Shown piece by piece: positions 28,201 through 63,724 of a stretch of 64,000 nt of DNA. The stretch's first letter is position 1; every line of letters starts with the position of its first letter. The notes under the pieces are model-generated. The model made no database searches and had not been told where the DNA came from. It saw only the letters and a list, made by a program, of their open reading frames with translations. Source of the stretch: Metridium senile (Eukaryota > Cnidaria > Anthozoa > Actiniaria > Metridiidae); contig OX459107.1 of NCBI GenBank assembly GCA_949775045.1, positions 9,233,250 to 9,297,249 on the forward strand. The letters are read 5' to 3'. The position numbers were made by a program, and so were the translations under genes.

Positions 28201-28802
28201 ATACAACCAAATAGCATCAAAATTTGTGATATGGTATATGTTGATATGCTTTTTCATGTTATGTAGTTTATTTATTAATTGCATTAATTCTAGAAACTAG
28301 TACCCAGTCCCCTCCTAGCCCATCCTCGTTTAGAACATGGCCAATTGAAACACTTGCAAATTTCATGGGTCATAGTCAAATTCTAAAGAATATATTACAT
28401 GCTATCAAGGCTGAGGTTGATGGAAGAGAACTGTGAAATAATCTATTCAAGCACCCAGAACATGAAGAGCATGTTACAATGACTTTGTTGAAAAACCACT
28501 TCAGCCTAACATGGACAATCACTGGTTCCTTTATGCTGGTGTTTTTTACTGTAATGCTAAATCAAATGTTTATGATGATCTAAAATATTTATTATAATTG
28601 TTGTTTCAGTAATGAATGGGAGAAATTTACCCCAGCAACTAACATCCAATGGCTGCACTACCTAGCAGACAAAATTATCAACAAGAAGTTTCCTTCAAGA
28701 AACAGGGCAGCAAGTACAGCCTTGAGACGATTCTATGGAAGGATACTTCAATACCAGTCAGCCAGAGAATTCGTTGAATGTGATGACAGTGGATTTTTCT
28801 AA
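19247..28802 (+). CDS. HASPIN: Haspin, histone H3-Thr3 kinase
   Basis: Atypical nuclear kinase that phosphorylates histone H3 Thr3 in mitosis and so recruits the chromosomal passenger complex to centromeres. Exons: 19247-19389, 19874-21209, 21876-21994, 22753-22843, 23250-23335, 23557-23584, 24902-24948, 25326-25417, 26102-26407, 26956-27058, 28610-28802 (2544 nt, 847 aa, all GT-AG and in phase). Residues 1-530 are a Ser/Thr-rich, low-complexity regulatory tail beginning with a basic patch, MPYKRRVVNTYGRHRFR. The kinase domain starts near 535: glycine loop GEGVYGEV (542-549), VALK lysine 563, catalytic loop EHRDLHWGN (Asp703) and VIDFT (Asp741). VIDFT replaces DFG, as is typical of haspin. 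The conserved QGDYQFDIYR lies downstream. The protein ends SGFF. The terminal exon seeds a tandem repeat. Confidence 0.96.
21338..21563. mobile_element. TTA-flanked inverted-repeat element (PIF/Harbinger-like)
   Basis: Ends GGGGTGGACCATTTGACTTT and AAAGTCAAATGGTCCATCCC are inverted. TTA lies on both sides (21335-21337 and 21564-21566), the 3-bp duplication typical of PIF/Harbinger. It sits just downstream of haspin exon 2. No transposase. Confidence 0.65.
21653..21783. mobile_element. TA-flanked palindromic element
   Basis: Arms CCCTGGGTTCCAGAGGCTCT and complement, about 50 bp each, around a short loop. Each end is flanked by TA. Lies in haspin intron 2. Confidence 0.7.
22213..22566. mobile_element. 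Element rich in CACGAATCACG words
   Basis: Bounded by GAGGGTCCCCT and the roughly inverted AGGGACCCTC. The interior repeats CACGAATCA, TTCACGCAAAA and similar words. A relative occurs at 13300-13375. Lies in haspin intron 3. Confidence 0.5.
23612..24790. repeat. 40-bp satellite in haspin intron 6, plus degenerate continuation
   Basis: From about 23657 to 24420 a 40-bp unit (CAATCAATCAGCCAACCAAT then CAATCAATCAACTATTTATT) recurs about 19 times. From 24425 to 24790 it passes into a longer-period array of CCAGCCAATCAGCC and AAACAGTCAATTGGTCAAAT blocks. It begins 27 nt after the 5' splice site of the 28-nt exon 6 and fills nearly all of the 1.3-kb intron. Confidence 0.93.
25018..25236. mobile_element. 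Family I inverted-repeat element
   Basis: Ends CATGTTATCTAGTACCGCTG and CAGCAGTGCTAGATAACATG are inverted, as are the inner ACAAAAGGCGCATTTGCACA and TGTGCAAATGCACCTTTTGG. Lies in haspin intron 7. Confidence 0.75.
25548..25627. mobile_element. Short palindromic element (GATCTGTATGCAATATACAA)
   Basis: Arms GATCTGTATGCAATATACAA and TTGTATATTGCATACAGATC flank a 22-bp loop. A partial relative lies at 53682-53712. Confidence 0.65.
25694..25895. mobile_element. ~200-bp near-perfect palindrome
   Basis: Arms of about 95 bp contain GTTTCCACCAGACAAACA, TTTGATTGAGAGGCGGAGTC and their complements. The centre is near 25795. Lies in haspin intron 8. Confidence 0.8.
26515..26790. repeat. (GAT)n-type microsatellite
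   Basis: GATGATTGTGAT variants in haspin intron 9. Confidence 0.85.
27125..27544. mobile_element. Family B element interrupted by a TA-flanked MITE
   Basis: Outer ends AGAGTGGTTTTCATTAACC and GGGTTAACGAAAACCACTCT are inverted. Inside, 27173-27448 is a separate element with ends CAGTGCAACTCGCCGTACCG and GGTATGGCGAGTCGCACTG, flanked by TA. The nesting shows the outer element is older. Haspin intron 10. Confidence 0.75.
27826..28441. mobile_element. Large inverted-repeat element with nested hairpin
   Basis: Outer arms carry CACAGTTCTCGTTGATTAAC and TTGATGGAAGAGAACTGTG. Inner arms carry GGACTGGGTACTAGTTTCTA and complement (near 27955 and 28310). At the centre, 28108-28152 is a palindrome around GGAGGGACAGCTGTCCCTCC. 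Haspin intron 10. A short relative of the outer arms lies at 22055-22165. Confidence 0.65.
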
Positions 28803-29420
28803 CAAAATACTGCAATAGTGAATGCAAGGCATGCGCAACAATAACGGGAGGCACTGAAGATTGCCTCGGCACCTCAACAAAGAATTTTAAAGAATTTGTT
28901 GAATGTGATGATTGTGGATTTTTCTAGTAAAAAACTGCAATAGTGAATGCAAGGCATGCTCAATAATAACAGGCACTCAAGATTGCCTCGGCATCTCAAC
29001 AAATAATTCAGAACTTATTGAATGTGAGATGGCAGTGGATTTTTCTAGCAAAAAAAAAACTGCTATTGCCAATGCAAGGCATGCTCAATAATAACAGGCA
29101 CTTAAGTTTGCCTTGGCATCAACAAAGAATTCAGAACTTGTTGAATGTGATGTGATGTGATTTTTCTAGCAAAAAAACTGCTATTGCCAATGCAAGGCAT
29201 GCTCAATAATAACAGGCACTTAAGTTTGCCTCGGCATCAACAAAAAAATCTGAACTTGTTGAATTTGACAAGTCATGCAGAAAATGCAGAATGCAATGCA
29301 TGCAACTGGCATTTATTGCCATTACACAAGACATAACATTGATGGCATTCACCCAAGTGCAGATTGCCCAAGCATTTCAACAAAGAATTCAGAACTTGTT
29401 GAAATTGACAAAAGTGGGCT
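28766..29420 (+). repeat. ~120-bp tandem repeat seeded by the haspin stop-codon region
   Basis: The first unit contains the last 12 haspin codons and stop. Units recur near 28885, 29005, 29128, 29245 and 29383. They carry GAATTTGTTGAATGTGATGA-like, GGATTTTTCTAG-like, AATGCAAGGCATGCTCAATA and GCCTCGGCATC blocks. The copies form the haspin 3' UTR and diverge progressively. Confidence 0.85.
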
Positions 29421-29915: not shown

Positions 29916-32900
29916 CTAGTCTAAATGACAAAGAAAACTGTTAGTTTTAGTCTGATTGAACGAGAGGAGTACAATTATATGAGAAATCTCTGTAGAGTAC
30001 AAATTAAGTTTTTCAGCAACTATATAAATAAAAAATTGCACAATCTTCTCATACAATTCATAATTAATAGATACTCTTGATGTTTTTTTTAAGTTATCAA
30101 ATTGGACTCTCCTTTTAGGTGAAAAGGCTTTTAAAACATCACTTGTAGCTATTAATTACGAATTGTACTCAAGATCCTGCAATTTCCTGTACTCCAGTTT
30201 CAGGTTGTTTGTTACCTAGTCTAATGTTTATCTATAGTGCGAATCGAAAAACCTAGGCACCCAGAAATATTAATTTTTAGAAATCGTTTATTGTTCGTTG
30301 AACAACTCACAAAGAACTCTAACTAAAAAAATTTTATCATACTACACATCAGTCAAACTTCTTGCAGTGATATAATTGTTTCTGAGTTGTTCAACGAATA
30401 ATAAACAATTTCTAAAATATATCTAGTTGTCCACGGTTTTTTGGACTGTAATATATACAATATAGCCAATAAAATGAAATGTGCATCCAGCCCCAAACAA
30501 AGGGCTACAGCTCAAAACATCAGTAAAGTTAAGTTTACTGTGTTACATATTTCATTTTAATGGCTATAGTATATTTAGTTGAAATCCAACAGGTTTAACT
30601 GCAAAAGAGTTGAATAATGTTACCATGGCAACTCGGCATTGTCCTTATATTTAAGGATAATTATTTGGGGAATGGTATGCTTACTGTTGTTTCTCTCTCA
30701 TGTCTTGCAGGCATACTGAACTTTGCTCTTTGTTTATCTGAAATAATTATTCTTATGTTATAAGTGTATAGATATAAAGTACACCTGTTTTCATGAACAT
30801 TGTCAAAATAATGAAACGTTAGGAATTAATTGCCCTATTTCATTATGAGGTCACAATGTGTTTTAGTGGGGGATAGAATCGCCGAAAACAATGGTAATTC
30901 CAACTAAATCTTCTTTTTCTTTGAAAATTGAGCTTCAAATTATCTAATTTTTATGTATGTAATAATATACATGAAAAAATTACTCGAATTTGATTGGCTG
31001 AGAGCAGTGCAGTTCAAGTGTAACACAGTGCAGAAAAGTGTAACACAGTGCAAATTACATTCCGTACAGTGCAAATTACAAAAAAATAAATCGCTTATGA
31101 TAGGCTTTATTCCTAAATCATTTTAGTCACTAATGCTTGGCAGTAATTTAAAAAACACTTTAAGTGGCAATTCTCTCAAAAATCGTCGAAAATTTGTAAG
31201 AAAAATACAAAAAACTGACCAAGTTTTGAGTGGAAAGTTTTGAATTTTCCGCTTGAGCTCGAGCGCGCGCTTGCTTACGACATCAACACGTCATTTTTGG
31301 CGCGCGCTACTAGCCGAAAAATGACCCAAAAAAATGAAAAAGAGCTTGAGTTTTTTCATGTATATTATTAATAAGTAATCACATGGTTTCTCGTTCAATT
31401 TGGGATAATTCGCACTCATGTGTTTTTCAAAGAGCCAAATTGCACTTGACCTACGGTCTCGTGCAATTTGTACTCTTTGAAAAACACACTCGTACGAATT
31501 AATCCCAAATTGAACTCGAAACCATATGATTACCTATACTTATGTGTCTTTGTTATACTTTCATATTTATGGCATTTTGTTGTCATTTCTTTCCTATCTG
31601 TCTTGTAAATGCAATTTTATTGTGTATTCTTGTATTGTTGTTATGAATCTGTCCCCCACTGGCAACCATGATCCTTAGCGTTAGAACAATAGAATGTTTT
31701 GATGTGACGTCATAGTGAAATAGGGCAATTATGATCTGATTTACTGAAAAAGATGGCAATAAACTATAATATACCACAAAAGGTATCATTGACTAATGGA
31801 ATCACAGTAAGTACACTCAAACCGTGAACACTGAGTTTTTTTGTTCCTTGTTTAGCCTACATCCCATGAGCAAATAGATTAGTAATAAGATTTATTAGCA
31901 ACACTTGGTGTTTTTGAACTCACTGCTTCATTTTTAGAGGTTTTGAAGCATTAGAAAATAATAGCATGAAAAAGTAATGTGTTCATGGTTCGAGTATCCT
32001 CACTGTAATAGGATTAGTATTGAATAGCTAGACTTTTAGCTAACTTAATCAAGGCCGATATATACATCTTTTTCAAAAATCTTTGTCGCAATCAAAGATA
32101 CAGTTCATGCTCTGAAGTACACAAAGAATGTTGGTATTTCTTCTCTTATCAATTTATTTATAGCATATTTTGGTTGTACGTGTTTGTTTTATATGACGAA
32201 CAAGTCGTCGAAGTGGTAGATATTTAAACAAATATTCCTTTAAAAAACATGTACCAATTAACAGTTTATGTTCATATTACCGACACCCTTTGCAGCTTTC
32301 AGAGTGTGAACTGTAGCTTTGGCTGCGACGATGATTTTTGAAATAGGTGTATTTTAAGCTCCAGTGCACCTCTATTTTAGAAAATTAGGTGTATTCAAAG
32401 GGGTAGAGGGTTGGTGCAAAACATAATGTGTTCTTACCAAGTTCTTCCTGGTTGTCAAACAAGTCATTAATGTACATTCTGAAAGATAACAATGACAAGT
32501 TGAAAAATACACAGTAGACTTTTAGAAGGCTACAGATTTACACTTGTGAGATATCAAGTTGAACACTCAAAGATAAACTTCATACCTCCGCACACCCATG
32601 TAAAAATGTGTTTATTATATAATATACCATGTTTTAAATCAATAAATTATTTCAAAATGTTAAAAACATAGACATGTATGATAAATACAAACATCAACAC
32701 CGGACAAATGACTTGTGTGATATGATTTTTATCAGTGTGTGAAATCACTACAAAACACTATGTTATATAATAATAACAATAATTTATTTCTATTATATAA
32801 TAACATTTCTATTATATGATAATAATGTTTATACAGGTAAGTAAAAACAAAAAGGTTTTTACATGAAAGCTTCATTTTTTACCAACCTTTTAGCTAAGGG

Positions 32901-35900
32901 CATCTGTGTGTTGTCAAAGAAGTTACTTCTTCTTCTCTTGGGTACAAGGTAACCATACTTGGCCATCAACTCAAACACTTTCTGTTGGATTAGACAACAC
33001 CATTAGGGGGCTTTCATTTATTATTGTATAGGGGGGGGGGGGGGGGGTTGGTACAAGGTAACCATACTTGGCCATCAACTCAAGCACTTTCTGTTGGCAC
33101 ATACAACAACATTAGGGGGCTTTCATTTATTATTGTATAGGGGGGGGGGGGGGTGGTTGGTTGGTACAAGGTAACCATACTTGGCCATCAACTCAACACT
33201 TTCTGTTGGCACATACAACAACATTAGTGGCTTTCATTTATTATTGTATAGGGGGGGGGGGGGGGGGGTGGTTGGTTGGTACAAGGTAACCATACTTGGC
33301 CATCAACTCAAACACTTTCTGTCACTTTCTTTCTTTCTGTCAATATTAGCTGAGTTTAAAAAATTCCTATACCTTCAGTTTTTAAGATATAAAGGAAATT
33401 AGCGAGTAAACTAGTATAGGCTGCGTCGGTGTTTGATATAAATGATAGGTAATATAATGAAAGTTGTAACACCGTAAAAAATGTTGACTTATAAACTTCA
33501 CTGATGTTTCCTGCTTTAGCCCTTCGTCAGAGTAAAATTCTGTCACTTTCATTTTTTTAGTTTTTTTGATTTACAAGGTCACATGACCATATTCTGCAAA
33601 GGGCCTATTGCATAATCATCACTGATATTAAGTACTTTCCGTACGTCATGACTGCGAGCCGAATATTTTCCCATACAGCCCTCCTGTTCAGTCAATAAGT
33701 TTTTTATCATATGACCCGTATTTTGCCCGGCGCGCGCCATTTTTGTTGTGATGTTTCGAGTAGCAGGTCCGTATGTGTTTGTACGGACCAGGTGAAAAAA
33801 GCTGTACGGACCCCATCATGTGACTTTTTCCGAAGGTTTTCTTAAGAGCGTGCGCCGGGAAAAATGCAGGTCATATGATAATGTGTCTTACGTACCACAG
33901 CTTCATCTCTATCTCTGTTTATGCTGCAGCAGTCTAGTAGCTGTATCAACGCTGTGTACCTACAAGCAGATCAAATCAAGTATGTCAACATTCTTAGTTA
34001 AAACAATTAAAATTCCTTTTATAATGAAAATTAAAGGAATTAAAATAAATTAAATTATGCAAATACATCAATTTAAAGTGCATTATAACAAAAGATATTG
34101 TTTGTAAACACAATAGTTATTTACAGCAAGATGCTCAAGACTGTGACCACTGATAATGTATTTGCATACTTTTGTAGCGCCATCCTCCAATTAGCGTTTA
34201 GATCAGAGATAAGATAAGACAATCCTGTAATGCTGATTGGATAACAGCATAGACGAAAGTATGCGAATACATTAGTGGTGGTCACACTTTTGGGCGCTTT
34301 GCTGTAAATGTTTTTAAATAAATAACTTTGCTTTTATGGAGTCACTTAGTTCGTTGAGCAGGGGTTGGCGAACTTGAATAAACAACATTTCAAAGATTAA
34401 ACAGGATTAAAATTTCCTTGTGTATACACCTATTTCAATTAATGTTGATCATCTAGAAATGGTTGATCGGAGGCAAATACAAATAGCATTTTTCACGGTT
34501 ACTAAAAATAGATATTGCAAAGCCTTGTGGGATGGAAATGTGGACAAACTTTGTAAAAAAGGCTAGTTTGATTTCAAGGAAAAGAAGACCAATATCAGTC
34601 AAAAAACATAGTTTTCCATGAATTAGAAACAACAAGACAAAAAACATTGTTGCAGCATATCATAACTCGTGGGATATCTTATCAACACTCGAAGATAAAA
34701 TTCATATCTCCGCACGCCCATGTAATCTCCTCTATATATTAATGCAACATAATGCATCATCGTGACGATCTGTGGAAAGCGCTATTGTGAAAGTTCATTA
34801 AATGCCAAATTCCAAATGCATTGTTATAATCACACTTGAATGATTCCGAATTACAGATACCAGTATTTCAAGTAAGCATTAGTTTTCAAGCATGATCACA
34901 ATAGTAAATTTGCAATTTAATGAACTCCCACAATTCCTATTGATCTCAGATCAACCATTTCCAGATGATCAATGTTAATAGAAATTAGTAAAGTTTATTG
35001 CTTTTTCCTTCATACGAAAGCAGGACACCACAACAGTGTACAACGCTAATTGACAATGGGCCCTAGCTGCAGTATATCTGAGACCTGACTGCTGTGCCTG
35101 GAAATAATCCCCTGCTCTTTTTGAAGAGCACAACAAGATATTTTACGTCAACATTATATAGGAATTAGAGTGAAGGCAGACGGGACCTCCGGCTTTACGT
35201 CCCTATCCGAGAAGACGAGGCACATAGAGAGTAAAGTGTCTTGTCCAAGGACACAACGCAATCGCCTGGGCCAGGAATCTAACCCAGACCATTAGGCCCA
35301 GAATTTGATTGCCTGACCACTAGACCATTACCCCTATCTAAAAATATCTAAAAGTAAATAATACTTACGTTGGGTGGAAATTGTATTCATCAAACATCTT
35401 CATGACTTTCCTACAATGAAACCATTTAGCACAATTAATATCAATTAAAATAAATAATACCTTCTCTCTGTTCTGGAAACCTATTTTATTCTTTGTAAGC
35501 CTGCAGGCTCATTGTTTACATTCCCGGGCAGGGGGTTTGGGTATGATGGAGGAGGTGGGGGTACTCCCTTTGTCCAAGTGAGTGAGGGGCTCATTTATTA
35601 GTGTATGGGGGGGGGGGGGGGGGGGGGGGTTCGTCAATATTGCAGGGGAATGTATGTTGTTTTCAGAAACTATGTAGGGGGGGTTGTTACAAATTGTATG
35701 CTATAATATAGGGGTTTAGTGAAAATATAATGAAATATAAGGGGGTTATGATATTTTAGCCAACCAGAAAGGGGGGTTGGGTAATATTTGGAAAAGACAA
35801 CAGGTGTTTTTGCCGACCCTACCCCCCCTCCCACATACACTAATAAATGAAAGCCCCTAAGAGACTGTCTACTTACCAGGCTTGCTTGAGGTGACCTCCA

Positions 35901-38900
35901 GCACAATATTGTTTGACGAGCTGACTAATCATATGAGGAGAAATCCTGAGAAAGATAAAACAACACTATTATTGTCAGCATTATTATTACCATCATCAAA
36001 ACTATCATACAATACAATACAATAAACTTTATTTTACAAGGGAAAATATTTATAACATTAAAAGTCATCAAACATACAGCCCTCATATCATCATAATCAT
36101 CATCATTATCATCATCCTAACCATCACCATCATCATCACCGACGAAGAATTATATGCAAGTTGAGTTTGTTTGATGTGTTGTCCTCTCCAATGCCTTAAG
36201 GATTTTTCTCTGGGTTATAATTATCTGTAAGCAGAGTTATGTGCTAAAATATTTAATGTAGGGGTAGTGAGTGTGGGCCCCACTGTCTAGTGGCTAGAAG
36301 TTTTTTTAAACAAGTGTTCTATATATTTTAATAACTTACGGTATATTAAACTTCTTCATCCAGAAAAAGACATCTTCCATGATCTCCACATATTGCTTGT
36401 AATTCTGAAAAACACAAAAAGGTCAATGCATGGTGTGGTACTCCCTTGTTAGAAACAGGTTCCCATTTAAATCTGTACTTATGCATCATCTGTGTGTTTA
36501 GCACACATTAACACAATTTGCATAAGTACAGATTTAAATGGGAACCTGTTTAGAGTAGTTTCACATAAGCTGGTTTTTGTATGCTAATGTGTTCCTTATA
36601 ATTATGCTAATGAGGTTGTTGACAAGAAAAATAATGAATTCAAGTGTATACGTTGTTACAATAAAAACACAATTACAGACTTTCTTAGAAAATCAATAAA
36701 TAAGTTAAGAAATAAGTACAGAATACATAGCTGGCTTAAATAAAGATTATGTTGTTACTTTTGTTTTAAATTAACAAAAAATGAGAAATGATATACACAC
36801 TTTCTATTGTAACAGCATATGCACGTGAACTCGTTATATTTCTTGTCAATGATCTCATTAGCATTACAACACATTAGCATACAAGAACCGGTTTATGTGG
36901 AACTACTCTATTATCAACTTTGTCATTTTAATCTAGGCACAAGTGTAAGCTCAAAGCTCAAGGTTTTCTTTAAGACGATTTACAACACTAGTCATGGTCA
37001 TGGTTTCTTTTGTAAATTTCTCATTAATTATTCATGAGTTTTTAATGATTTTTGGTTGTGTACCTTAGGAGATGTCCTTCTAGCTAAAGCTGAGAAGATT
37101 CCTTTACTTGTCTGCTCACTTATAGGGACCCTGTATCTCTTCATGTCTAGAAACATACACAGAGTCACATGTTGTTGCTGCTACTGTCAACCCCATCATT
37201 GGTTGTCATCATTGTCATCATTACTGTTATCATCATTGTCATCACTATCATTTATTGTATTGTTATCATTATCAATGTCAGGATCATCAATAATATCATC
37301 AACATCAGTATTAGTTGTTATTATTATAATCATCATTGTCACTACCATCACTGTCATCATCATTGTCATCATCATCATCATTAATTGTATTGTTATCATT
37401 ATCATTGTCAGGATCATCATTAACACCATCAACATCAGCATTAGTTGTTATTATTATAATCATCATTGTCACTACCATCACTGTCATCATTATTATTGTC
37501 GTCATCATCATTATCATTAATTGTATTGTTATCATTATCATTGTCACCATCATCATTAATTCATATCATTATAATCATCATTGTCACTATCATCCTTGTC
37601 ATCATCATCATCATCAACATTATCAATCGCTATCATCATAATCATCTTAGTAGCACTATCATAAGATAAGGAGGCAAATCCAAACCAGTCTATTTCTGTA
37701 ACTGTACTGCGCATTAGGTCATTAGGTCATTATATATATTATGTATTTTGCGCATTATGAAATTATTATAAGTATCACCATCATCACCACCATGTTCATT
37801 TTTACCACTACCACCACTACCATAATCACCATCCTATCAATCAATTTACCTTGATAAAACCACCATCCTATCAATCAATTTACCTTGATAAAACCACCAT
37901 CCTGTCAATCAATTTACCTTGAAAAACCACCATCCTATCAATCAATTTACCTTGATAAAACCACCATCCTATCAATCAATTTACCTTGATAAAACCACCA
38001 TCCTATCAATCAATTTACCTTGATAAAACCACCATCCTATCAATCAATTTACCTTGATAAAACCACCATCCTATCAATCAATTTACCTTGATAAAACCAC
38101 CATCCTATCAATCAATTTACCTTGATAAAACCACCATCCTATCAATCAATTTACCTTGATAAAACCACCATCCTATCAATCAATTTACCTTGATAAAACC
38201 ACCATCCTATCAATCAATTTACCTTGATAAAACCACCATCCTATCAATCAATTTACCTTGATAAAACCACCATCCTATCAATTAATTTACCTTGATAAAA
38301 CCACCATCCTATCAATTAATTTACCTTGATAAAACCACCATCCTATCAATCAATTTACCTTGATAAAACCACCATCCTATCAATCAATTTACCTTGATAA
38401 AACCACCATCCTATCAATCAATTTACCTTGATAAAACCACCATCCTATCAATCAATTTACCTTGATAAAACCACCATCCTATCAATCAATTTACCTTGAT
38501 AAAACCACCATCCTATCAATTAATTTACCTTGATAAAACCACCATCCTATCAATTAATTTACCTTAATAAAACCACCATCCTATCAATCAATTTACCTTG
38601 ATAAAACCACCATCCTATCAATCAATTTACCTTGATAAAACCACCATCCTATCAATCAATTTACCTTGATAAAACCACCATCCTATCAATTAATTTACCT
38701 TGATAAAACCACCATCCTATCAATCAATTTACCTTGATAAAACCACCATCCTATCAATTAATTTACCTTGATAAAACCACCATCCTATCAATTAATTTAC
38801 CTTAATAAAACCACCATCCTATCAATCAATTTACCTTGATAAAACCACCATCCTATCAATCAATTTACCTTGATAAAACCACCATCCTATCAATCAATTT

Positions 38901-41900
38901 ACCTTGATAAAACCACCATCCTATCAATTAATTTACCTTAATAAAACCACCATCCTATCAATCAATTTACCTTGATAAAACCACCATCCTATCAATCAAT
39001 TTACCTTGATAAAACCACCATCCCGTCAATCAATTTACCTTGATAAAACCACCATCCTATCAATCAATTTACCTTGATAAAACCACCATCCTATCAATCA
39101 ATTTACCTTGATAAAACCACCATCCTATCAATCAATTTACCTTGATAAAACCACCATCCTATCAATTAATTTACCTTGATAAAACCACCATCGTATCAAT
39201 CAATTTACCTTGATAAAACCACCATCCTATCAATTAATTTACCTTGATAAAACCACCATCCTATCAATTAATTTACCTTGATAAAACCACCATCCTATCA
39301 ATCAATTTACCTTGATAAAACCACCATCCTATCAATCAATTTACCTTGATAAAACCACCATCCTATCAATCAATTTACCTTGATAAAACCACCATCCTAT
39401 CAATCAATTTACCTTGATAAAACCACCATCCTATCAATCAATTTACCTTGATAAAACCACCATCCTATCAATCAATTTACCTTGATAAAACCACCATCGT
39501 ATCAATCAATTTACCTTGATAAAACCACCATCCTATCAATCAATTTACCTTGATAAAACCACCATCCTATCAATCATTTTACCTTGATAAAACCACCATC
39601 CTATCAATCAATTTACCTTGATAAAACCACCATCCTATCAATCAATTTACCTTGATAAAACCACCATCGTATCAATCAATTTACCTTGATAAAACCACCA
39701 TCCTATCAATCAATTTACCTTGATAAAACCACCATCGTATCAATCAATTTACCTTGATAAAACCACCATCGTATCAATCAATTTACCTTGATAAAACCAC
39801 CATCCTATCAATCAATTTACCTTGATAAAACCACCATCCTATCAATCAATTTACCTTGATAAAACCACCATCCTATCAATCAATTTACCTTGATAAAACC
39901 ACCATCGTATCAATCAATTTACCTTGATAAAACCACCATCCTATCAATCAATTTACCTTGATAAAACCACCATCGTATCAATCAATTTACCTTGATAAAA
40001 CCACCATCGTATCAATCAATTTACCTTGATAAAACCACCATCGTATCAATCAATTTACCTTGATAAAACCACCATCCTATCAATCAATTTACCTTGATAA
40101 AACCACCATCCTATCAATCAATTTACCTTGATAAAACCACCATCGTATCAATCAATTTACCTTGATAAAACCACCATCCTATCAATCAATTTACCTTGAT
40201 AAAATCTAGGAACAAGTCTTGGCATCTTTTCTCTTTCCACCATCTTGAACAGTTCACTGTACACCCAGTTGTGTGGGATCAGTTTCTGCAATGATCAGTA
40301 AAACAATGACATTAAAAAACTAACAAATTATAAACTATTAATTATTGTAATTAATAATCAAATTAACGATTTACATTGAACATTGGATTGAATCACAATT
40401 TGATAACAATAAGATAATTATTATTATTAATAATATCAAATATCAAACTTACAGAGGGCACAAGTTCTTTGTACACGTGGAAGATCACTTCTGCACTTTT
40501 TTCTGCCCTGGCTAAAGCCACAAGGAAAGTAGCACTGCAAATTGAATAAACAAAGTACAGCCTTCAGATAAAGCAAACTAATGTTTGTTGGTCATTCATT
40601 CATTCATTCATTTGTCTATTTTTTATTTATTCTTAAGGTGGAAGATAGATATGGATAAAATTCATTTTTTATGGAAAATGTTTAAAATTATAATTAAACC
40701 TTTATATTAAATTCATTGTATGTTATAATTATTGTTTGTTGACTTACTAAAACTGTCCTCTTTTTCCACCCAATAGCATTGAGTCATTGGTCTCTGCTAA
40801 AGCATACAGACGATGTGCTGCATTTGCATCCTGACAGAACAGGGCCTAGAAAACAAACAAGGTTTAATTTATTAGTCACTGACTTAATGACATCTTATGT
40901 TGATATGAAAATTTGATGACATGGCATTTGTTGGCAAATCCAAAATGCAGCTTTAATCTTGGACAAAAATGTTGAAAAACTAAAGAAATTATTTCTCACA
41001 TTAGAAAGTAAGCAATCAATTCCATACCCCCCTATAAACAATGCTGGATCTTAGGCCTATGACGGCCTGTGACGGCCTATGATGGCCTATGACATCAAGA
41101 TTGCGTGCCTAAACATCAGTTTTGAAAGCAACTTTTTGAAAGTTGTCAATATTTTTTTTGTCCAAGATGGTAGCCTCTTTGGCCTGGTTGTCAAGTGTGT
41201 TTCCAACCAGGGATGGTTCCCATAATAGATCTTATCGGCTAATGCGTTGCTATGTACGTTTCCACCCAATTCAAATCTTTTGGGAATAAGATTCTTTGTC
41301 TTATGTATTTCAATGTCACATGGAAAATATTTGGAACAAAAGTTTTTATTCCCAAAGGTCTTCAATTGGGTGGAAATGTACAAAGCAACACGTTAGCCGA
41401 TTAGGTCTATTTTAATAAAAAGGAGGGTTTGTGCATCTTTGCTCAAGGATATACATAAAAGATATAACAATTACTTACTGATCCCATAGCAGTGTTGAAA
41501 AATCTCACTGAAAATAAAATGATAGTTTGAATATTGTGAGAATGATCCGACATAATTTAGGGTTATCATTGTCATCAACACTATCACTAACATCGCTATT
41601 ATTATCATCAAAAACACCATCATTGTTTTTATTATCATAATTAACAGTATTACTATCAGCATCGTCATCATTATCACAGCATAACCATTCTTATCCTTAT
41701 CATCATCTTAATTCTTTTTTATTACTATCACCATCATCATCACTAGATTGGTTGTCATAAACCCGTGAAACAAAAGTTACTTATTAAATAGTAATAGCCA
41801 GAATCAAACAAAAGAAAACAAAAGAATTAGAGCGTAATAGTACTTAATACGCTAACATGTATCTCACAGGTTTATGAAAATCACTCTATCATTACCATTG

Positions 41901-42974
41901 TCACCACTACCATTATCATAACAACCACCACCATTAATACAACACCACCACCACTATAACAAATAAATATCATTAAACACATTGATTATATTCATGCTTA
42001 GATATGTACCCATAATTCCTTTATATATTGGAATAATCCATCATTGTACCAACCTTTTTGAATGAGATGTAAAACTATATATATAAATCACTCACCATCA
42101 GAGACATGCTGCAAGCTTGGTAGTATATCGTATGATTCTAAATGACTTATGACTGTCTGAAGAAGGTTGTTACTGTGCAGTGGCAGGGATTTGTAATCAA
42201 CACCTATAATATCATCATACATATCATGTAGGTTCATTTGTACTAGTAGATTTATAATATACATGTCGAGTTCTTAACTTTTAATACTCAGTATTTTTGA
42301 AAGCGTGAATTAATTGTGCATAAACCTACATTCATTTGTAACACATGTTTAACATGTTTAACTGTGTCACAGGACATTTGGTCTTTGTATGGCACAGAAA
42401 ACCTAACAGTATAGACCTCATCCAGAACAGAGGCATTTTGTTGCACTAAACTTCATTTTAAAATACAATTTTCCAAAAGTTTTGAAGACAATAAAATCTG
42501 TATAATGTATCAATTCCTTTGACATTTAGTAGGCTAGAACATATTTCATGATGTTTTTATTCATAAAAAAACATTTTCCCAACAGTTTTGTAGACAATAA
42601 AAACAACAAAATGATATATGTAATATATGACATTGTCTTGATAAATACCTTTGACACGTTCAGTGTACAGTTGTCTATAATATTCAGATCTCAGCAGAAG
42701 ACTGTATGTTGCAAGTGAAGGCTCTAGATTGGAACAGTATTGTCAATGGTAATGCTCATGATTAACTAAGTGATATTTCAAGGACAGGGAACAGTGAATG
42801 TGGGACCACACCTTAGGCGCATTTGATCATATATCCATGTCAATTTGTGACTAATAAGTAATAAATTATTATTATTATTCAAGTGGTGCACATTAACATT
42901 CTTAGTCATTATCATTGTTTTTATATCACTACTATCATGAGCATCACTATAATCATCATCATCATCACCACTAT

Positions 42975-43011
<37 letters not shown>

Positions 43012-46000
43012 TTCATCATCATCATCACCATCATCATCATCATTATCACCACTATCATCATCATGATCATCACCATCATGATCATCACCATCATCATCAC
43101 CATCACCATCATCATCATCACCACTATCATAATCATCATCATCATCATCATCATCATCACCACTATCATCATCATCATCACCATCATCATCGTCATAGTC
43201 CCAATCATCATTATCATCATAATCATTACTATCACGGTCATCATAATCATCAGCATCATTATTTCCATCATCACCATCATCACAAACTGTCAATATCATC
43301 ACCATCATGATCAAAATTATCACCATCATCATAAACATCATTACCATTATGATCATCATCACTATCATCATCATCATTATCACAACCTGTTAATTATCTA
43401 AAATATCATCACCACCATTATGATCATCATCACTATCATCATCATCATTATCACAACCTGTTAATTATCTAAAATATCATCACCACCACTATGATGATTA
43501 TCATCATCATCATTATCCATTATAAATAATCACTAAAATAAAAGGATAACATACCAATTCCTTTACTTTCCATATCCCTGAATACCTCCAGCGATATATC
43601 AGAACCATTGGGCAGTAAGACACACAACTTTAATAATGCATTATACGTTCCTATAAACAATAATATTACCAATTATTACAGTGCGACTACTGAAACCAGG
43701 ACCACCCAATCAAATTTCAAAATATGTATTTTTTGAGATCAAACAAAAACCTTGTACAAGGTTCTCACAAGCTAAAATGTTTCTTATTCAATGTTGATCT
43801 ATTTCGTTCACATATAGTGGAAATTTCTGGAATTTTAAGCAACAAAATCAAACATTTGTAGAGATTCTATTGTTCATATTCTCAATCGTGATTGGATAAT
43901 AATGTTTTGGTGGCCCCGGTTTCAGTAGTCGAACTGTAAGAGCTTCCGAGTTTTCCTGATTTCCGATTAGTTCAAACCCAGTCTCTTGACCATGCTTGTA
44001 AATAGCCAACTGGTTTGCCTCCTTGCCAGTTGGGATTCTTATCTGAGGGCCATTATGAAAAATACAGGATAAAATTACCTTCCAATAATAATTGTTTTCT
44101 TTTTTAATTGTGTGTCAATAAGGCTAAATTAAACTATAAACATATAGCAAATTAATATCACAATTTCTTACCAAGAGTTGGCAAAACAGCAGGATCTTGT
44201 TTCATGTGTCCAATTATTTCCTATGACAAAAAGAGGTAAAAAGACAGTAAATAATTGAACAAATGCGCTTGTTGGAACTATCATGGTGGCAACATAATCA
44301 GTTCACAAGCATGTAGGTTACTGAAACATCAGACACTAAGGCCTTCAAACATTGCATCTCACAAGTTCACAGAAATAATTGAACAAAAGACTATTGTTTA
44401 AATGCATTTGCATTTGATTCCACACATGTGAGATGTGATGTTTGAACTATGCCTAACAAACAGTTTTAATAAGACTGCACATTAGCAGATGATAACATTT
44501 CACAATCATCACTTCTACCTATAACAGGTTCCCATTTATATCTGTACTTTCCTGGGCATTTAAATCTGTACTTATGCAAATTTTGTTGATGTGTGCTAAA
44601 CACACAGATCAACCAATCAGAGAAGTTCACTTCAGAAATAATATACTCTGATTGGTTGATCTGTGTGTTTAGCACACATCAACAACAGATTTAAATGGGA
44701 AAGTACAGATTTAAATGGGAACCTGTTCTATGTAGGTTAAAAACATAATTGCTATGCATCTAAATTAGTCCTAATTATAGTATTTGCATTGATGATAAAA
44801 GTTACCTTAATGCCATCCCATAATTTCTCTCCATTTCCATATGAAGATGGACTCTTCTGTAGCAAAGCATTGTAGGTAAATATAGATGCTGTCAATTAAA
44901 ATATGTCAATGTCAATTAAATTTCAAAACATTGTTTGTTAATTTGCTAATGAACAAATAAAATGGAAACTAGCAAGTAAACTACTATAGGCTGCGTCGGT
45001 GTTTGATATAAACGATATATAATGACATTTGTAACACTGTAAAAAATATTCATCAACACTGCAATCCCCCATGTCCCCTCTTATTTAAATCTACTTGTTG
45101 GTGTCATTATACTGAATGTATTAATCTATTTGGAATTCTGTTGCACACAGGCATTTATTAAAATACACATGTATGCTTTTCTTGTTTTTGTTTTGTTTCC
45201 CCACAAAAAAGATGGTACCGGTACTGCAAAGGTCATGGGTTCAAATCCCGTTGAAGCCCCGAATTTTTTTCGGGCTTCTATAATTGCAATTACATAAATT
45301 GCTTATTTCTCCGCGACGATCATAATCATACACAAATCATATAACCGCGGATCAGACCCACATATTACAAAAAAGTTGGTGCTCACCATCGACAAGCATT
45401 TTGAACTAGAAAGATTACACCATTATAGGCTAGAGGAGAAAAAACTTTTAAACTTATTATAATATTATAATAATTATATTATAATATTATATTATAATTG
45501 TAATGTTTATCATGACTTTAACTATGAATTTATTGTTAATATTACTGTATTTGAACTGTAACTTATGAATATGTAATTCAGCTATCGTAGGGTACCAGTA
45601 ATTATCAATAAACTATCTATTTATTCAAAAATCCACCGATTGTTGCGACACACTTGACTCAACCCACATGTAAACAATAATATAGGAGCACAATGCATTG
45701 TGGTCCACTTGGATTCTTCAAGTAATATACCTTGATAATTTTTCTTTCTCATTTCTTTGAACAGTTCAAAAGCTCTGCCAGTAAAATTATGCTGCAGAAA
45801 AAATGAAAGAATTATAATGTTAAATTAGCTAACAATTGTAAAACTTTGAAGAAAAAAATTACCATACAATAATAATGATCATTACCTTTATCAATGCTAA
45901 TATCATTGCGTTGTAAGTCCTTGAGTTTTTTTCCTCCATACTTGAAAACAGTTTCTCTGCGTAGTTATCCATACTAAAATTAATAGAGTACAAACATTAA

Positions 46001-49000
46001 AAGGGTGCAACATAAATAGTACTACATAGAGATATGTTATGCTAAAATTTCTTTTGTTTTCTATTGTTTAATTAGTACTTTTTAGTACTAAATAGTATTA
46101 GTCATATGTTTTGGTTTTTGTACTCTATTCCAAATTAAAACTAAATTTAAAATTAATTATCATGTTTATAATTTACACCTTTCAAAATAATTATCAATAT
46201 AACTTATCTGTTTGTGTTTTATTTTGATTATGTTATTGAAACTCTCTAAACAAATGTTTGAGTTCTTGTTTGATTCTTCATGTCAATGAGTACAAAAAAT
46301 AATTCCTTGTTTGAGAACAAACTTTTTAATTAAAAAACTATTTACCTCCATGTATTCTTGTGTCTGACAACTTCTTCCTGTAAAGATAGGCACAATAATT
46401 GAAATATCCTGTCTATCAGGTACCAGTATATATAATTTATTATAAAACATGTGAGCTAGATACTACATACACTCTTATTGGCTGGCTACCGTGTTTATAT
46501 CAGAGGACAGATACATGCTCAGTAAATAATTTCAAAAATATTTCATAAAAGCAACATAAAATATCCGCTTGTGTATATATACTGTGATATTTAACACTCT
46601 AGGGGCTGTAGAGCTCTTGAGAAGTCAAAAATAAACACTCAGCTAAGCCTTGTGTTTCCTTATGACATCTCCCTTACCCCACAGCTAACCAGGAACAACA
46701 AAGCTATATATATTACTTATAATTTAGGCTGACTTTGTTTTTAATATAGCAGAAAACGAGTTGCACGTCTTCCCGATCTTGTTGTCACATTAGTTGTCAT
46801 TAATTTTTTACATTTCTTTTGACCTGATTTGATGCACAAAAAAGTTTGGCCCTCCCCTTAAGACTTTCACAATTCTTTGTGGCCCTCCCTTTTAGCCTAC
46901 ATGAAAAATAATGATCCTCCCCCATTTGCACCAGCCCTCCCCCCTCTAATTTTTGACCAGTCCCTAACAACTCACCTCTTCATCGGATGATTCTGAGTCT
47001 TCAACAGAGTTGTTCTTATCCGAGTCACTTGAAGATGAACTTTCATATTCATTGTCCTGTGATATGAAATTGATAATAAGGATAATGGTGAATGACGTAG
47101 TTTCCCCCGCAGCCGTTTTTAGTCTCATTCCACTCCCCTACAGTCCACTTCTCTCCCCACAAACGGCTGCTCACTCAAGTGCAACATTCCATTAAATCCG
47201 ATTTTGTGATTATACACTTGATCAATCACAACGCTCATTAGATCGGTGAGAGAATGCAGCGGAAATACAAGCTGTGTGTCATTTGTGTGTTTCTAAGGAA
47301 AGACTATAAATATTACAATTTACTCGTCGTGAATGGATGTAACCCCCCAAAAATACAGAATAGTGACATAAACTGTATTATCTGCACAGCCACAGTTAAT
47401 GATTGCAAGAAGCGCATTCGCATTTTCAAATCTGGTAATGGTAAAGTTTTTTAAACCTTTGACCTTCAAGGACTCATTGGTAAAACACTTGACAGTTGAT
47501 GTATCAGTTTACGCTAATTCTAATCTCGTGATATGTATTAAATGTAGAATAAATACCGTTTTGGATCCTTCAAATCTCCTCCTCTGTGCTAACATCGCTC
47601 AAACTAATAGATGCAATACCCATCTGCCTTAAACGTTGTATTTGATCTTCAATCAGTGACATTAAAGGCCAGTATATTCGTCAAAAACTATTGGCATTGC
47701 TTAGAAAAATAACAGATTTCCTGAACCCTGTCAGTAAACTGACAAATACATCCTTTTTTTCAAAACTACTTGCTCCATAGCTTCCTTTTGATGATTATCG
47801 AGGTCATTAGAATTGAATCTTTTACACACTTTGGTAAACACATTTGACAACTCTCAAGCTATTTTGAAACATTTTGAAACTCAAGCTATTTTGCCTATAA
47901 CAACAAAGAGAGAGTCTGGGACAAGGTTTCCAGTATATAGAAGCCTGTTTCCTATTGGTCGAGACTCAGAAAGTAATGTTGCACTCGAGTGAGCAGCCGT
48001 TTGTGGGGAGAGAAGTGGACCGTAGGGGAGTGGAACAAGACCAAAAAAACGGCTGCGGGGGAGACTATGAATGATGTTGCTCATGATAATGAAAATTATA
48101 ATCATTAAGATATTGATGTTGTTGTTGATGATGATGATATTTATAATGGGGGTGATAATTATAATGGGGATGATAAAGATGATGATAGTGATGATGTTGT
48201 TGATGAAGATAATAATAATAGTGATGATAATGATGATGGTAATGATGACGATAATGATGATGGTAATGATGATGATGATAATGATGATGGTAATGATGAT
48301 GATAATGATGATGGTAATGATGATGATAATGATGATGGTAATGATGATGATGATAATGATGATGGTTATGATGATGGTAATGATGATGGTAATGATGATG
48401 GTAATGATGATGATGATAATGATGATGGTAATGATGATGATGGTAATGATGATGGTTATGATGATGCTAATGATGATGGTAATGATGATGGTAATAATGA
48501 TGATGATAATGATGATGGTTATGATGATGGTTATGATGATGATAATGATGATGATAATGATGATGATAATGATGATGATAATGATGATGATGGTAATGAT
48601 GATGGTAATGATGATGATAATGATGATAATAATGATGCTGATGATGATAATGATGATAATGATGATGATAATGATGATGGTAATGATGATGGTAATGATG
48701 ATGATGGTAATGATGATGGTTCATAGGTAATGATCATGATATAAATGGTGATGATGATAAAGATGATAGTGCTTAATATATGATTTTTGCCATTGAATCA
48801 AAAATAAGTCAGGAAAATGTCAGATAACAAATAATTTAATTATTTACTTACTAAATTATCAGCAGCAACAGAACCATAAAACCCAACAAGGTCCAACAGT
48901 TCATTCTTTGTTTCAAGTGAGACCACAACACCTTAAAGAATGGGACACGTCAGCAGCAATCAGAATAGAAGGCAAGGAGGTAATTAAAAGAGAAAGAAAT

Positions 49001-52000
49001 AGAAGGCAAGTAAGAAAAGAGAAGAGAAAAGTAAATGGAAAGTAAAAAAACAAGAGAGAGGATGAAGAGAAGAGAAGAGAAAAGAAGAGAAGAGAAGAGA
49101 AGAGATGGGAAGAGATGTGAAGAGATGGGAAGGGAAGGAAAGAGGAAAAACAAGTTCTAAAGTGTATTTTACCATCACTGACAAGCTTCTCATAAGCACT
49201 GATTGCATCTTGTGGTTTCATTTTTGAAATAACAACTAAAAAAAACATGAAACATCATTAATATACAATTCTGCAATAAATGAACAAAAAATGTTACTTC
49301 TTACCTTTGAGATCTGCTTCAGTTTGTATAGAATCACTATCATTTGATTTCTCCCATGCCTAAGGAACACAAGAAATTAATTATATATACATATGTAGTA
49401 TATACATATCAAGGTGAAGAGTTTTAAAGTCAGGGTTTTTTTGTGCCTGGGTTTGAAATAGAGTAAGCATTTTCAGCAAAAAACAGATAATAGAAACATA
49501 ATCCCATTTTTTATGACTATGATTCATCAGTCACAATTGCATAGGAACAGACAAAAAGGTCTGATTTCCACCTGGTCTTCACCTGATTTCCATTCTAACT
49601 CTGGCCCAGAATATAAGAATCTGAAGCTGAAGCAAATGGCTAATTACTAAACCAGCTATCTACCATCTACCTCTGATGAAAGGCTTAAAGTGCCTATAAA
49701 CCCTGACAGTTTGCTATTTCTATTATAAGTGCTGGTCCTAAATAACAATTTTCCAGAAGAATAAAATACTGCAATAAAAAATGTGCATTTTATAGCAGTT
49801 TGAATATGCCCAAAAAGTGTTGTTTGGGCTTCCTGTGTAAAAAAATCGGAGTTTATTGATATGAGCTGGTGACAATATCAATGACGTACTGTCTGGGATA
49901 GAAACTATTGAAACTTGCAAAACGCTATCCCGGACACTACGTCATCGATATTGTCACCAGCTCATATCAATAAACTCCGATTTTTTACACAGGAAGCCCA
50001 AATAACACATATTCAAACCGCTATAAAATGCACAGTTTTTATCGCAGTATTTTATTCTTCTGTAAAATTGTTATTTAGGACCAGTACTTTTAATAGAAAT
50101 AGCAACCAGCCATAGGCACTTTAAAGCTCAAGACGCCAGTAAAGTTAAGTCAACATTTTTATGGTGTTATAAATTTCATTATATTACCAACAGGTTCCCA
50201 TTTAAATCTGTACTTTCCCATTTAAATCTGTACTTATGCAAATTAAATTGATGTGTGCTAAACACACAGATCAACCAATCAGAGAAGTTCACTTTAGAAA
50301 TAATATACTCTGATTGGTTGATCTGTGTGTTTAGCACACATCAACACAATTTGCATAAGTACAGATTTAAATGGGAAAGTACAGATTTAAATGGGAACCT
50401 GTTTACCTATCATTTTTATCGACGCAGCTTATACTAGTTGACTTGCTAGTTTCCATTTAGATTTCTCAAACTCATTAATAATTCATTATCTCAGGGACCA
50501 ATATAAACTTTGCATTTCAGTTACATGCATAGGTCTTGATACTTCAGACACTGATCAAGACACTGACTATAAATTTGTTAACTTTTAGCCTCATGAGATT
50601 CAAAAACAAAATAATTATTACATAAAAAATTCATACAATACATATCTAATCAAAGCTTGACCTGATTCTACTTATGGCATATGATTTTAACTGACATTAA
50701 TATCTTAACGATAATTGCAAGTCACTTACTGGTTCTGGCTGTCTCATTGGAAACATTTGCGGATATTTCTGTAAAACAAACTCTGCTGCTTTGTACCCTG
50801 ACACACGGGCAGCTTTACACTCTTCCTGGTGACCAGCAAACAAAATCAATCAATGAATGGATGAATGAATGCATGAATATATGAATCAATGAATGGATGG
50901 ATGAATATATGAATGAATGAATGGATGAATTAATGGATGGATGCATGAATATATGAATGAATAGATGAATGAATAAATCAGTAAATGGATGAATGAATGA
51001 ATGAATGCATGAATGAATGAATGCATGAATACATGAATGAATGAATGGATGGATGAATGCATGAATAAATGAATTAATGGATGATTAAATGGACATATGA
51101 ATGAATAAATGAATAGAACATATGAATGAGTGAATGATAACTAAATGAATGAATGAATAAATGAATGAAGTAATATATGAATGAAGGAATAAGTGAATAA
51201 ATAAATGAATGAATACACAAATGAATAAATAAATATATGAATGAGCAAATGAATAAACGAATAAATGAATTATATGAATAAATTCATGAGTGAATAAATA
51301 AATGAATGAATAATTGAGTGAATGAGTGAGCAATTAGTAAAAAAATATAATAGGATATAAAATGGATGAGTGAATAAATAATTAGATGAATAAATAAATA
51401 AATAAACAAATACAAAAATAAATGAATTAATGAACAAACAAACAACAAAGAGATGTATGGATAAGTAGATGTATGAAGTACAAACCCTTTTTCTTGTTGA
51501 CTTTGGATATAAAAATAAATCTTCATAGAGCTCTCTGGGTGGTGCTAAAGCTGTCTGAAGTAACAAACAAACAAAGTCACAATAAAATGGAATGTTTGCT
51601 TTATTTGTTTCACATCTTGAATAGGGTTAACCACATTCACATGATTTACTTATACAAAACAACTATAACAAATAAATAGATAAATTCCTGTATACAGAAC
51701 GGCTGCTCGATCATAATGTATATATTTAATACTCATTACTTATAAAATTCATGAATAATTAATGAGAATTTTACAAAAGAAATCACATCCATTGCGAGTT
51801 CTGTAAATCTCATACAGATATTGTCCTTATTTGCATCAGTTCCAACTTCAATTTTCTCGGCCACATTTACTTTTATCTTGACAATTTTAGTAAAATATGA
51901 AAAAACTTACATTGGACTTTCATGCAAAAGTACTATACAGTATTCATGGCATAGTTCCAAATACTATGAAAATAGCAAACGTTATACCTATACACAAAAA

Positions 52001-55000
52001 AGACTCTAAATTTTCTTTATCAAACTACCGTCCAATCTCACTACTTTCTATATTTAGTAAATTACTTGAAAAGCTTATGGCAAATCGTTTAACAGTATTT
52101 TTAGAAAAAAATAAGATTTTATTTGAAAATCAGTTTGGTTTTCGTAGTAAACACTCCACTGATTATGCCATTCTTAGCATTGTAGACAAAATACAAACTG
52201 CAATAGATGATTCAGACTATTCTTGTGGTCTTTTTCTAGACCTCAGTAAGGCGTTTGATACCGTCAACCATGATATACTAATAGAAAAACTTGAATATTA
52301 CGGAATCAGAGGCATTGCTAAGACATGGTTTACATCTTATATTTATAATCGCAAACAATTCGTCACCATTAAAAATTTTAATTCTGAGCTAGCAACAGTC
52401 AGAACAGGAATTCCACAAGGCTCTGTGCTTGGACCAATTTTGTTCTTAATCTATATAAACGATTTTCATCTTTGCTCTTCTCTGTTTGAGTTTCACTTAT
52501 TTGCAGATGACGCTAACTTATTCTATAGAAATAAAAACATAAACGTCCTACAACAAAACATAAACGCCAAATTAAATAAAGTTCACTTATGGTTATATAC
52601 TAATAAACTATCACTCAACATTCAAAAGTCTAATTTTGTTTTATTTCATTCACGGCAAAAGAAAATCAACTCAAACTTTGAGCTTAAACTAAACAACAAA
52701 TTGATAAAACAAGAAAAAAGTATCAGATATTTAGGCATCTACATAGATAGTAATCTGTCGTGGAAAGATCATGTCGAATATATATCCAAAAAAATCAAAA
52801 AGAATATAGGAATACTATCGAAATTACGATACTATATCAACACTCCTGTTCTTGTAAATCTTTACTATGCACTTATTTACCCATTTCTGATTTACGGAAT
52901 TTTGGCTTGGGGTCATACTTATCAAACAACTTTACAGCCAATAATTGTATTGCAAAAGAAGGCTCTGCGACTAATCAACTTTTCACGTTTTGATGCTCAT
53001 ACAAGTCCTATTTTTAAAAACTTAAATATTCTCAAACTACCAGATCTTGTAGACTATTGCACTTCAATATTCATGTTCAAATTCAAAAGTAATGACTTAC
53101 CATGTAATTTTCATAATTTTTTCACTCATGTTACTAAGGTGCATAGCTATCAAACAAGATCAGCATCAAAACAAAATCTATACTTACCAAAAGCAAAAAC
53201 AAATTATGGCAAATTCAACATTAAATTTGTAGGCAGTAAAATCTGGAACTCTCTTGAGGAAAATGTAAGAAATTCTTCTTTCAAAAAATTTAAAGCTTGT
53301 GTTAAAGAAAAATTATTGTATACTTACTAATGACTCTTCTACTAGAAATTATCTGTTTTTGATTTTTTGCCATAACTTTGTAGTTTGTATTTGTGTGCGT
53401 GTGTCTGTATATGTATGCGTCTTTTTTTTATTATTATTTTTTTTTTGTGTGCTTATAATATAAATTAATTCATTTATTATAAAGTCACTTTCTTCTATCT
53501 ACAATAATAAACTATCAACAGATAATGGTCCTAACACCTTATTAACTCTTTAGTTATTGGTTAGGATCAATACCTAAAACTATACCTTTTCAATTTTATA
53601 TATTATTATAAAAACGTTGTAAATATTTCATGCAAGGTAAAAATAAACTATATTGTTGTTGTTGTTGTGTATTCAAGTATGATCTGTATGCGTTATTACA
53701 TACAGATCGGCCACTCATGTTGTGTATATTATTTCATACTTACAGGTTGTACGGTTCTTGCTAATGCCTTTAGTACAGCTAGTGGATCCCTGTAATATGA
53801 AAAGAAATTAATCAACCAATTGTATCAATCAGTCATTCAAAAACTATAGTCAATCAACTATCTATTCAATCAACTTGTCAATCAATCAGTCACTCAATCA
53901 ATCATTCATTAACTGTAGTCAATCAACTATCTATTCAATTAACTGTCACCAGGGTCCAAAAGTAACTTTTGACACAACCATGTTTGAGAATTTAGGCGTC
54001 CAGAGGAAAATTATTATTGTTTTGAAGACCACAAGGAATTTTGAACAAGATCCGAAAAATGGTTGGTCAGCGGCAAAATGCCCACAGCAGTCACCATGGC
54101 CAGGGTAAAACAAGATGGCGGAAAAACAAGATGGCGGGCGATTTGACGAAGAATGCTATGTGACGCTGTTTTTCTTTTATCTTGCAGTTTTTGAAGTTCA
54201 AAACAGGAGATCAATTTTAGGAAATCTTCATGTCATTTGCTTCGAAAAAAAAATCTACATCATCAGCTGGACAACCATTTTCGAAATCCAGGTGTCCATG
54301 GAAAATTCTAGTCACCCCTGATGACCGGACGACCATTAATTTCGAACCCTGAGTCACTCAATTAATCAATCATTAATTTACTGTCAGTCTGCAGTCAGTC
54401 AGTCAATCAATCAATCATTCATTAACTGTAGTCAATCAACTATCTATTCAATTAACTTGTCAATCAGTCATGCAGTCACTCAATCAATCATTTCTATACT
54501 GTCAGTCTGCAGTCAGTCAAAGTTTAAAAGTATTTTTATTCAAGTCTAACTGCTCACCTTTTCTGTGATACATCATAATTTACTACAAAACCTTTATAAA
54601 CAAAAAACAGTGAATAAATATAACAACTCATCACCATCATATTTATCATCATGAATCATTAACATCAATATCAACACCTCTACTATCATCAATCATCATC
54701 ATCATCATTATAATAACATTATCTAACCATCATCATCATCATCATCATCATTATGAGACGTGTGATTGTGATTAAAATCAAGCAGATCATCCTACCAGAT
54801 TCTATAATGTCTGTCTGTTTTTCGGACAAATTAGAATTTGTTGCAACACTCCTGAAAGACAAATATAATATTTTAATAGCAATTTTAAACCACTCTGTCT
54901 TCAATAATGAAGTTTAAAAATACTTACTCATTAACTGACATAGACATTTAATTTATTTGGTACCTCTTATGATATATTTTACAATACACTGTTATTATTT

Positions 55001-55510: not shown

Positions 55511-63724
<8,214 letters not shown>

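Follow-up and report, generated by a model that had tools for sequence, protein, structure and literature searches.

Can a minisatellite multiply the 5' splice site (donor) of a coding exon, and which of the copies would then be spliced? This question is raised by a 64,000-nucleotide stretch of the Metridium senile genome (assembly GCA_949775045.1, contig OX459107.1, positions 9,233,250 to 9,297,249; hereafter the window), in which a tandem repeat overlaps the end of an exon of PTCD3, the predicted gene for mitochondrial ribosomal protein mS39. The first repeat unit holds the authentic donor of this coding exon, and the later units keep the donor consensus. We consider it probable that the array is a slippage minisatellite, that its first donor dominates the mRNAs, that minor nonsense isoforms (+34/+68) are formed and that the other donors are passengers. 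An original prediction made from the sequence of this locus is partly supported by the analysis: its anatomy is right, and its claim of novelty fails.

The donor array and its gene

Tandem Repeats Finder (TRF) detected a head-to-tail array on the minus strand with a period of 34, 70.0 copies and 98% matches (Table 1), in agreement with the approximately 70 units over 2.4 kb predicted originally. The array adjoins the end of the exon (exon R) as predicted; it does not begin at the exon edge, since its start actually lies 10 nt inside the exon. A direct count of the anchor AAGGTAAA gave 70 anchors and 69 spacings, 68 of which are 34 nt and one 33 nt. Eight unit types are present, the commonest accounting for 45 of the 70 units. 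The 16-mer TTTTATCAAGGTAAAT is exact in 65/70 units, and the donor 9-mer AAGGTAAAT (AAG/GTAAAT, the slash marking the splice junction) in 69/70, the odd one reading AAGGTAAAA; a GT with donor consensus is found in all 70.

Rescoring this donor against the consensus MAG/GTRAGT returned the predicted value, 8/9. The 2,378-nt array contains 69 sites scoring at least 8/9; the remaining 61.6 kb of the same strand contain 20 and the plus strand 6, showing that the donor enrichment in the array is not due to chance. The exact 9-mer was not found on either strand in the rest of the window. No close copy of the 34-bp unit was detected elsewhere in the window either, the best ungapped match having 12 mismatches in 34, and no known structured RNA in the window matched Rfam at gathering score.

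Exons of the array-bearing gene were picked by eye on the minus strand and then tested by script for frame and splice sites. The resulting partial model comprises 22 exons (51554 to 35369), each preceded by AG and followed by GT, which form one frame of 531 amino acids without a stop. Its product matches mS39/PTCD3 chains from solved mitoribosome structures, with a best E of 5.6e-50. At 1e-10 or better, the matches comprise 32 distinct sequences, many of which are designed or chloroplast pentatricopeptide repeat (PPR) proteins. A homology search with 7,993 scored candidates returned six proteins; the best, from Actinia and named as PTCD3-like, matches at 74% over 70% of the query, and another is from Nematostella (58% over 48%). 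With tblastn, further exons were added upstream (near 53794-53735) and downstream (near 33958, 32981, 32537 and 30738). Exon R, numbered 22 in the original prediction (with exon S as 23), is thus the 19th exon found, with 17 modelled exons and the tblastn exon upstream of it.

Exon R ends with CAA G and the next exon (exon S) starts with AC ATG. Across this junction Actinia P0001 reads LYQDMKRYRVPI and the gene analyzed here FYQDMKRYRVPI, without a gap; the join is also ungapped in the printed alignments of mS39 chains, where residue identity is weaker. Since the stop-free 22-exon partial model matches solved mS39 proteins and the Actinia homologue joins YQ/DM without a gap, the predicted product identifies the gene as PTCD3, encoding mS39, as had been proposed. 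Phase together with the ungapped Actinia and mS39 alignments likewise places the true junction at 40195/40194, where it had been expected. The intron between exons R and S is 3,048 nt long, and the other 20 in the model reach 1,795 nt at most.

Use and origin of the donor copies

Use of donor k adds 34(k-1) nt to the mRNA, one nt less from copy 68 onward because of the single 33-nt step. Donor 1 is the only donor that keeps the frame. Donor 2 (one additional unit) leads to a TGA in exon S, and donors 3-70 lead to a stop within the added array sequence (68/68), so that all 69 alternative donors result in a premature stop, confirming the prediction on this point. Skipping of exon R (91 nt) or exon S (83 nt) alone shifts the frame, and skipping of both (174 nt) maintains it. 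The array was also considered as coding sequence and rejected, since the retained intron contains an in-frame stop at codon index 42.

The units might also be used by recursive (ratchet) splicing at AAG/GT as zero-length exons, or as 18-nt microexons of the type TAG/GATGGTGGTTTTATCAAG/GT; we consider this very improbable. AAG/GT is present in every unit, and the microexon would be an in-frame insertion adding GWWFYQ without a stop; GATAGGATGG was found 58 times within the array. The consensus of recursive-splice sites is a strong pyrimidine tract followed by (C/T)AG that adjoins GT. The acceptor half in the array is AAG in 70/70 units and follows a mere TTTT run, and the ratchet mechanism included in the original prediction is therefore poorly supported by the sequence of the units. 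No pyrimidine tract precedes the TAG of the potential microexon, and the donor and TAG of one unit are 16 nt apart, which is below usual intron size. A caveat is provided by exon E of the model: its acceptor (TTCTTTAAG/GTG, AAG at 48931 on the minus strand) may genuinely be AAG, unless the exon edge is misplaced. Because it reads AAG, AAG may be usable in PTCD3; exon E is the only one of the 22 modelled acceptors with this sequence, and its pyrimidine tract is better than that of the array.

The strength of the exon R donor is ordinary for PTCD3. Its duplex energy with U1 is -6.8, and stronger pairing is seen for nine of the 21 other donors in the model; seven of the 22, including that of exon R, score 8/9 and none scores 9/9. 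Such a middling donor would also fit an inert passenger array, in which donor 1 alone is used, the other 69 stay below a measurable level and PTCD3 is unaffected. Exon definition favouring the 91-nt exon and the intactness of PTCD3 through all 22 modelled exons are compatible with this possibility as well. We nevertheless regard it as rather unlikely, since the use of neighbouring units is documented in human ABCA7, with a second-hand report for IFI6 (see below), and since 68 of the 69 further copies carry the donor 9-mer of copy 1.

RNA structure masking the decoy donors selectively was tried as an explanation for donor choice and rejected. A uniform four-unit stretch folds strongly (-36.1, compared with a shuffle mean of -18.2; z -6.75); the z value is -1.97 for one unit, -2.16 for two units and -2.49 for a stretch in which three of four units are of the GATAC type. 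The probability of the donor 9-mer being unpaired is 0.018 for donor 1, with means of 0.017 for copies 1-15, 0.030 for copies 16-35 and 0.035 for copies 36-70. Donor 1 is thus less accessible than the averages of copies 16-35 and 36-70, and its predicted accessibility is below that of 15 of the other 21 modelled donors. Selection on the donor found no support either: one of nine donor positions is variable, compared with eight of 25 elsewhere in the unit, two of these eight representing one deletion.

These data bear on a selected regulatory array, whose multiple U1 sites would tune PTCD3 output to a degree set by array length, be it through unproductive splicing, by titrating U1 or by suppressing polyadenylation within the intron (telescripting). 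Many identical candidate U1 sites lie in one intron, an AATAAA spotted by eye is located further downstream in the same intron (37256-37251), and PTCD3 contains a second, acceptor-carrying array with decoys that are also nonsense (see below). We find a regulatory array improbable all the same, as donor constraint is not seen beyond the homogeneity of the array and folding masks the later donors no more than donor 1.

When the array is collapsed to one unit, exactly 34 nt separate a GATT at the exon end from an intronic GATT, making array birth by slippage between these two words possible. All 69 internal unit junctions read GG and both outer edges read GA, which suggests that one changed junction was probably amplified, as far as one sequence can tell. 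Eight of the ten GATAC units are found in the first 16 copies, all 11 TTAATT units lie in copies 28-57, and two odd units are copies 68 and 70; such patchy variants are usual in evolving minisatellites. An assembly artefact, with the copy number inflated or the array misplaced, appears very unlikely: blocked internal variants and odd distal units would not be expected from copied-out assembly errors, both edges join non-array sequence, and the exon edge is in frame with PTCD3.

We therefore return to the slippage minisatellite. A seed would have spanned the exon/intron junction by chance, the 34 bp between the two GATT words would have been duplicated, and expansion would have followed. Donor 1, the first to be transcribed and the one that defines a normal 91-nt exon, would for these reasons supply most mRNAs. 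A minority of transcripts may be spliced from one or more of the donors that come next (+34, +68 and so on) and be cleared by nonsense-mediated decay, and the remaining donors would be tolerated passengers and no selected device. By analogy with ABCA7, long alleles may raise skipping of exon S, with its frameshift. As folding does not favour donor 1, the preference for this donor rests on exon definition, transcription order and the ABCA7 precedent.

Several points weigh against this interpretation. The order of transcription is an argument that we infer, and according to a remark in PMC6002489 the intron-proximal member of a pair of comparable donors is preferred, for a reason not known; by this preference late copies would be used and PTCD3 mRNA would be low. 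Retention of a repeat unit in ABCA7 is described, in the section of the paper available, as unchanged with the length of the variable number tandem repeat (VNTR; PMC5954066). The scarce variation in the donor provides no evidence of selection either way. The GATT match is weak, comprising just 4 bp, and a third GATT lies between the two words. Finally, capture of a splice donor is uncommon: judged by position alone and with uniform seeding, the chance that a 34-bp seed placed at random in PTCD3 includes a donor is about 0.03.

A second array and other features of the window

PTCD3 carries a second array with splice sites, a mirror image of the donor array. This 109-bp repeat contains four copies of an AG acceptor together with the initial 40-41 nt of a later exon, KVFELMAKYGYLV. 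Only the last acceptor copy is productive, being continuous with the complete exon; a stop results from each of the three acceptors upstream of it (3/3). The first of the four is preceded by other sequence (AAAGAAAGTGACAG, with 3 pyrimidines in 20 nt, compared with 11 in each other copy), which predicts a poor acceptor.

Between 32430 and 53800, a region with 26 exons, two of the 12 merged arrays with a period of at least 7 overlap an exon edge. A random 109-bp seed holds an acceptor in approximately 11% of cases (position alone, uniform seeding). Two splice-site captures in one gene are unusual and prove nothing. The two arrays, with 70 donors, four acceptors and alternatives that are all nonsense, could be imagined to form a heritable, length-tuned rheostat for a mitoribosomal protein acting through unproductive splicing, in a genome that often captures splice sites by minisatellite; we give little credence to this extension.

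Table 1. Positions of the splice-site arrays and associated exons in the window.
Feature	Position	Strand	Basis
34-bp minisatellite with 70 copies, 69 of them with the exact donor 9-mer	37827..40204	-	TRF and direct count
True donor, copy 1, AAG/GTAAAT, junction 40195/40194	40189..40197	-	Phase and gap-free alignment over the junction
Remaining 69 donor copies (last exon-side base 40161 ... 37850), each with a premature stop if used	37844..40163	-	
PTCD3 exon R, 91 nt, ends TTTTATCAAG	40195..40285	-	Gene model and homology
Next exon S, 83 nt, acceptor TTTCTAG/ACATG	37064..37146	-	
Array of 109-bp units (TRF copy number 3.4) with the acceptor in four copies (exon-side bases 33318, 33202, 33090, 32981)	32941..33322	-	
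Later PTCD3 exon KVFELMAKYGYLV..., true acceptor 32981, in the exon-proximal end of the 109-bp array	32887..32981	-	

Other repeats were observed in the introns of PTCD3. Long tracts of the ATC/ATG type are located at 37194-37646, 42934-43453 and 48128-48771, one of these tracts lying approximately 180 nt past the distal end of the donor array. Three short inverted-repeat elements (36455-36549, 44524-44726 and 50190-50402) have ACAGGTTCCCATTTAAATCTGTA ends, of which there are six in total, five exact and one with a single mismatch, with none expected by chance; from these ends they look like a family of miniature inverted-repeat transposable elements (MITE type). An open reverse transcriptase of a retroelement (Pfam RVT_1; 51894-53330, plus strand) lies in antisense orientation between two exons of PTCD3; of these, the upstream exon was found by tblastn only. 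A galactosyltransferase gene (PF01762; 58026-59108, minus strand) and a CutC-family gene in two pieces (PF03932; 59502-59765 and 63563-63751, plus strand) are located upstream of PTCD3. ARAGORN predicted a tRNA-Glu(ttc) at 63195-63266 on the minus strand, which has no Rfam match at gathering score. A 125-bp array (28766-29268) was rejected as a coding repeat, since all six frames of 28740-29300 contain stops.

Comparison with known systems

A VNTR in intron 18 of human ABCA7 has a 25-bp unit and about 12 to about 427 copies (De Roeck et al., 2018; PMC5954066). According to the accessible part of that report, the VNTR includes the exon-18 donor, its first two nucleotides being the GT. Besides canonical splicing, three new isoforms are described there, one of which retains a single unit, resulting in a frameshift and a premature stop; skipping of exon 19 correlates with VNTR length, and isoforms with a premature termination codon increase under cycloheximide. 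ABCA7 and PTCD3 thus share an intronic minisatellite abutting an exon, a unit length that is not a multiple of three and the authentic donor in the first unit, and nonsense alternative donors and length-dependent mis-splicing, both among the effects proposed originally, have a precedent. In contrast to PTCD3, no exonic part of the repeat is described in those sections for ABCA7; the PTCD3 unit holds 10 exonic nt, and therefore the whole AAG/GTAAAT donor is copied. The gene and the repeat sequence also differ, and ABCA7 comes with population and RNA data, whereas the PTCD3 array is known from sequence alone.

A donor minisatellite in IFI6/G1P3 was reportedly described by Turri et al. in 1995. 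The IFI6/G1P3 repeat has a 12-bp unit, present about 26 times close to where exon 2 ends. A secondary source states that two downstream repeat units act as donors (PMC4526556). On that account, IFI6/G1P3 has in common with PTCD3 a minisatellite that offers multiple potential splice donors; added units of the 12 bp given above would keep the frame there, whereas 34 bp shifts it in PTCD3. ABCA7 and IFI6 thus provide two human precedents for the arrangement, and the claim that no array of this kind had been described fails.

Tandem copies of a segment with splice-site-like sequence are also part of intron gain. Extracts of the literature report duplication of a proto-splice-site segment leading to intron gain in fission yeast SPOG_01682/SOCG_00815 (PMC3629103), and intron gain by tandem duplication for ATP2A1 and a potato RNA-dependent RNA polymerase (RdRp) (PMC4974935). 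As far as these extracts go, a new intron arises in coding sequence there, whereas in PTCD3 the array extends the 5' side of an intron that is already present. Intron gain through AGGT duplication, in which repeat copies provide both splice sites of the new intron, does not fit PTCD3, as the array covers just 10 exonic nt and the acceptor lies outside it, 3,048 nt from the donor. GYNGYN tandem donors, described in the available text as two donors a few nt apart (PMC1779574), are likewise adjacent alternative donors of one exon; in PTCD3 there are 70 donors at a spacing of 34 nt.

A literature search naming cnidaria returned no invertebrate donor array by title, and a described case is still possible. 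New here are the invertebrate case, the possible birth by GATT slippage and the second splice-site repeat in the same gene. Taken together, the arrangement of ABCA7 and IFI6 is extended outside mammals, with about 70 near-identical donors. The locus offers a natural test of how the spliceosome chooses among many equal 5' splice sites, the first transcribed or the nearest to the acceptor, in which each donor, if used, would leave a distinct mRNA length. The acceptor array provides the mirror test for 3' splice sites.

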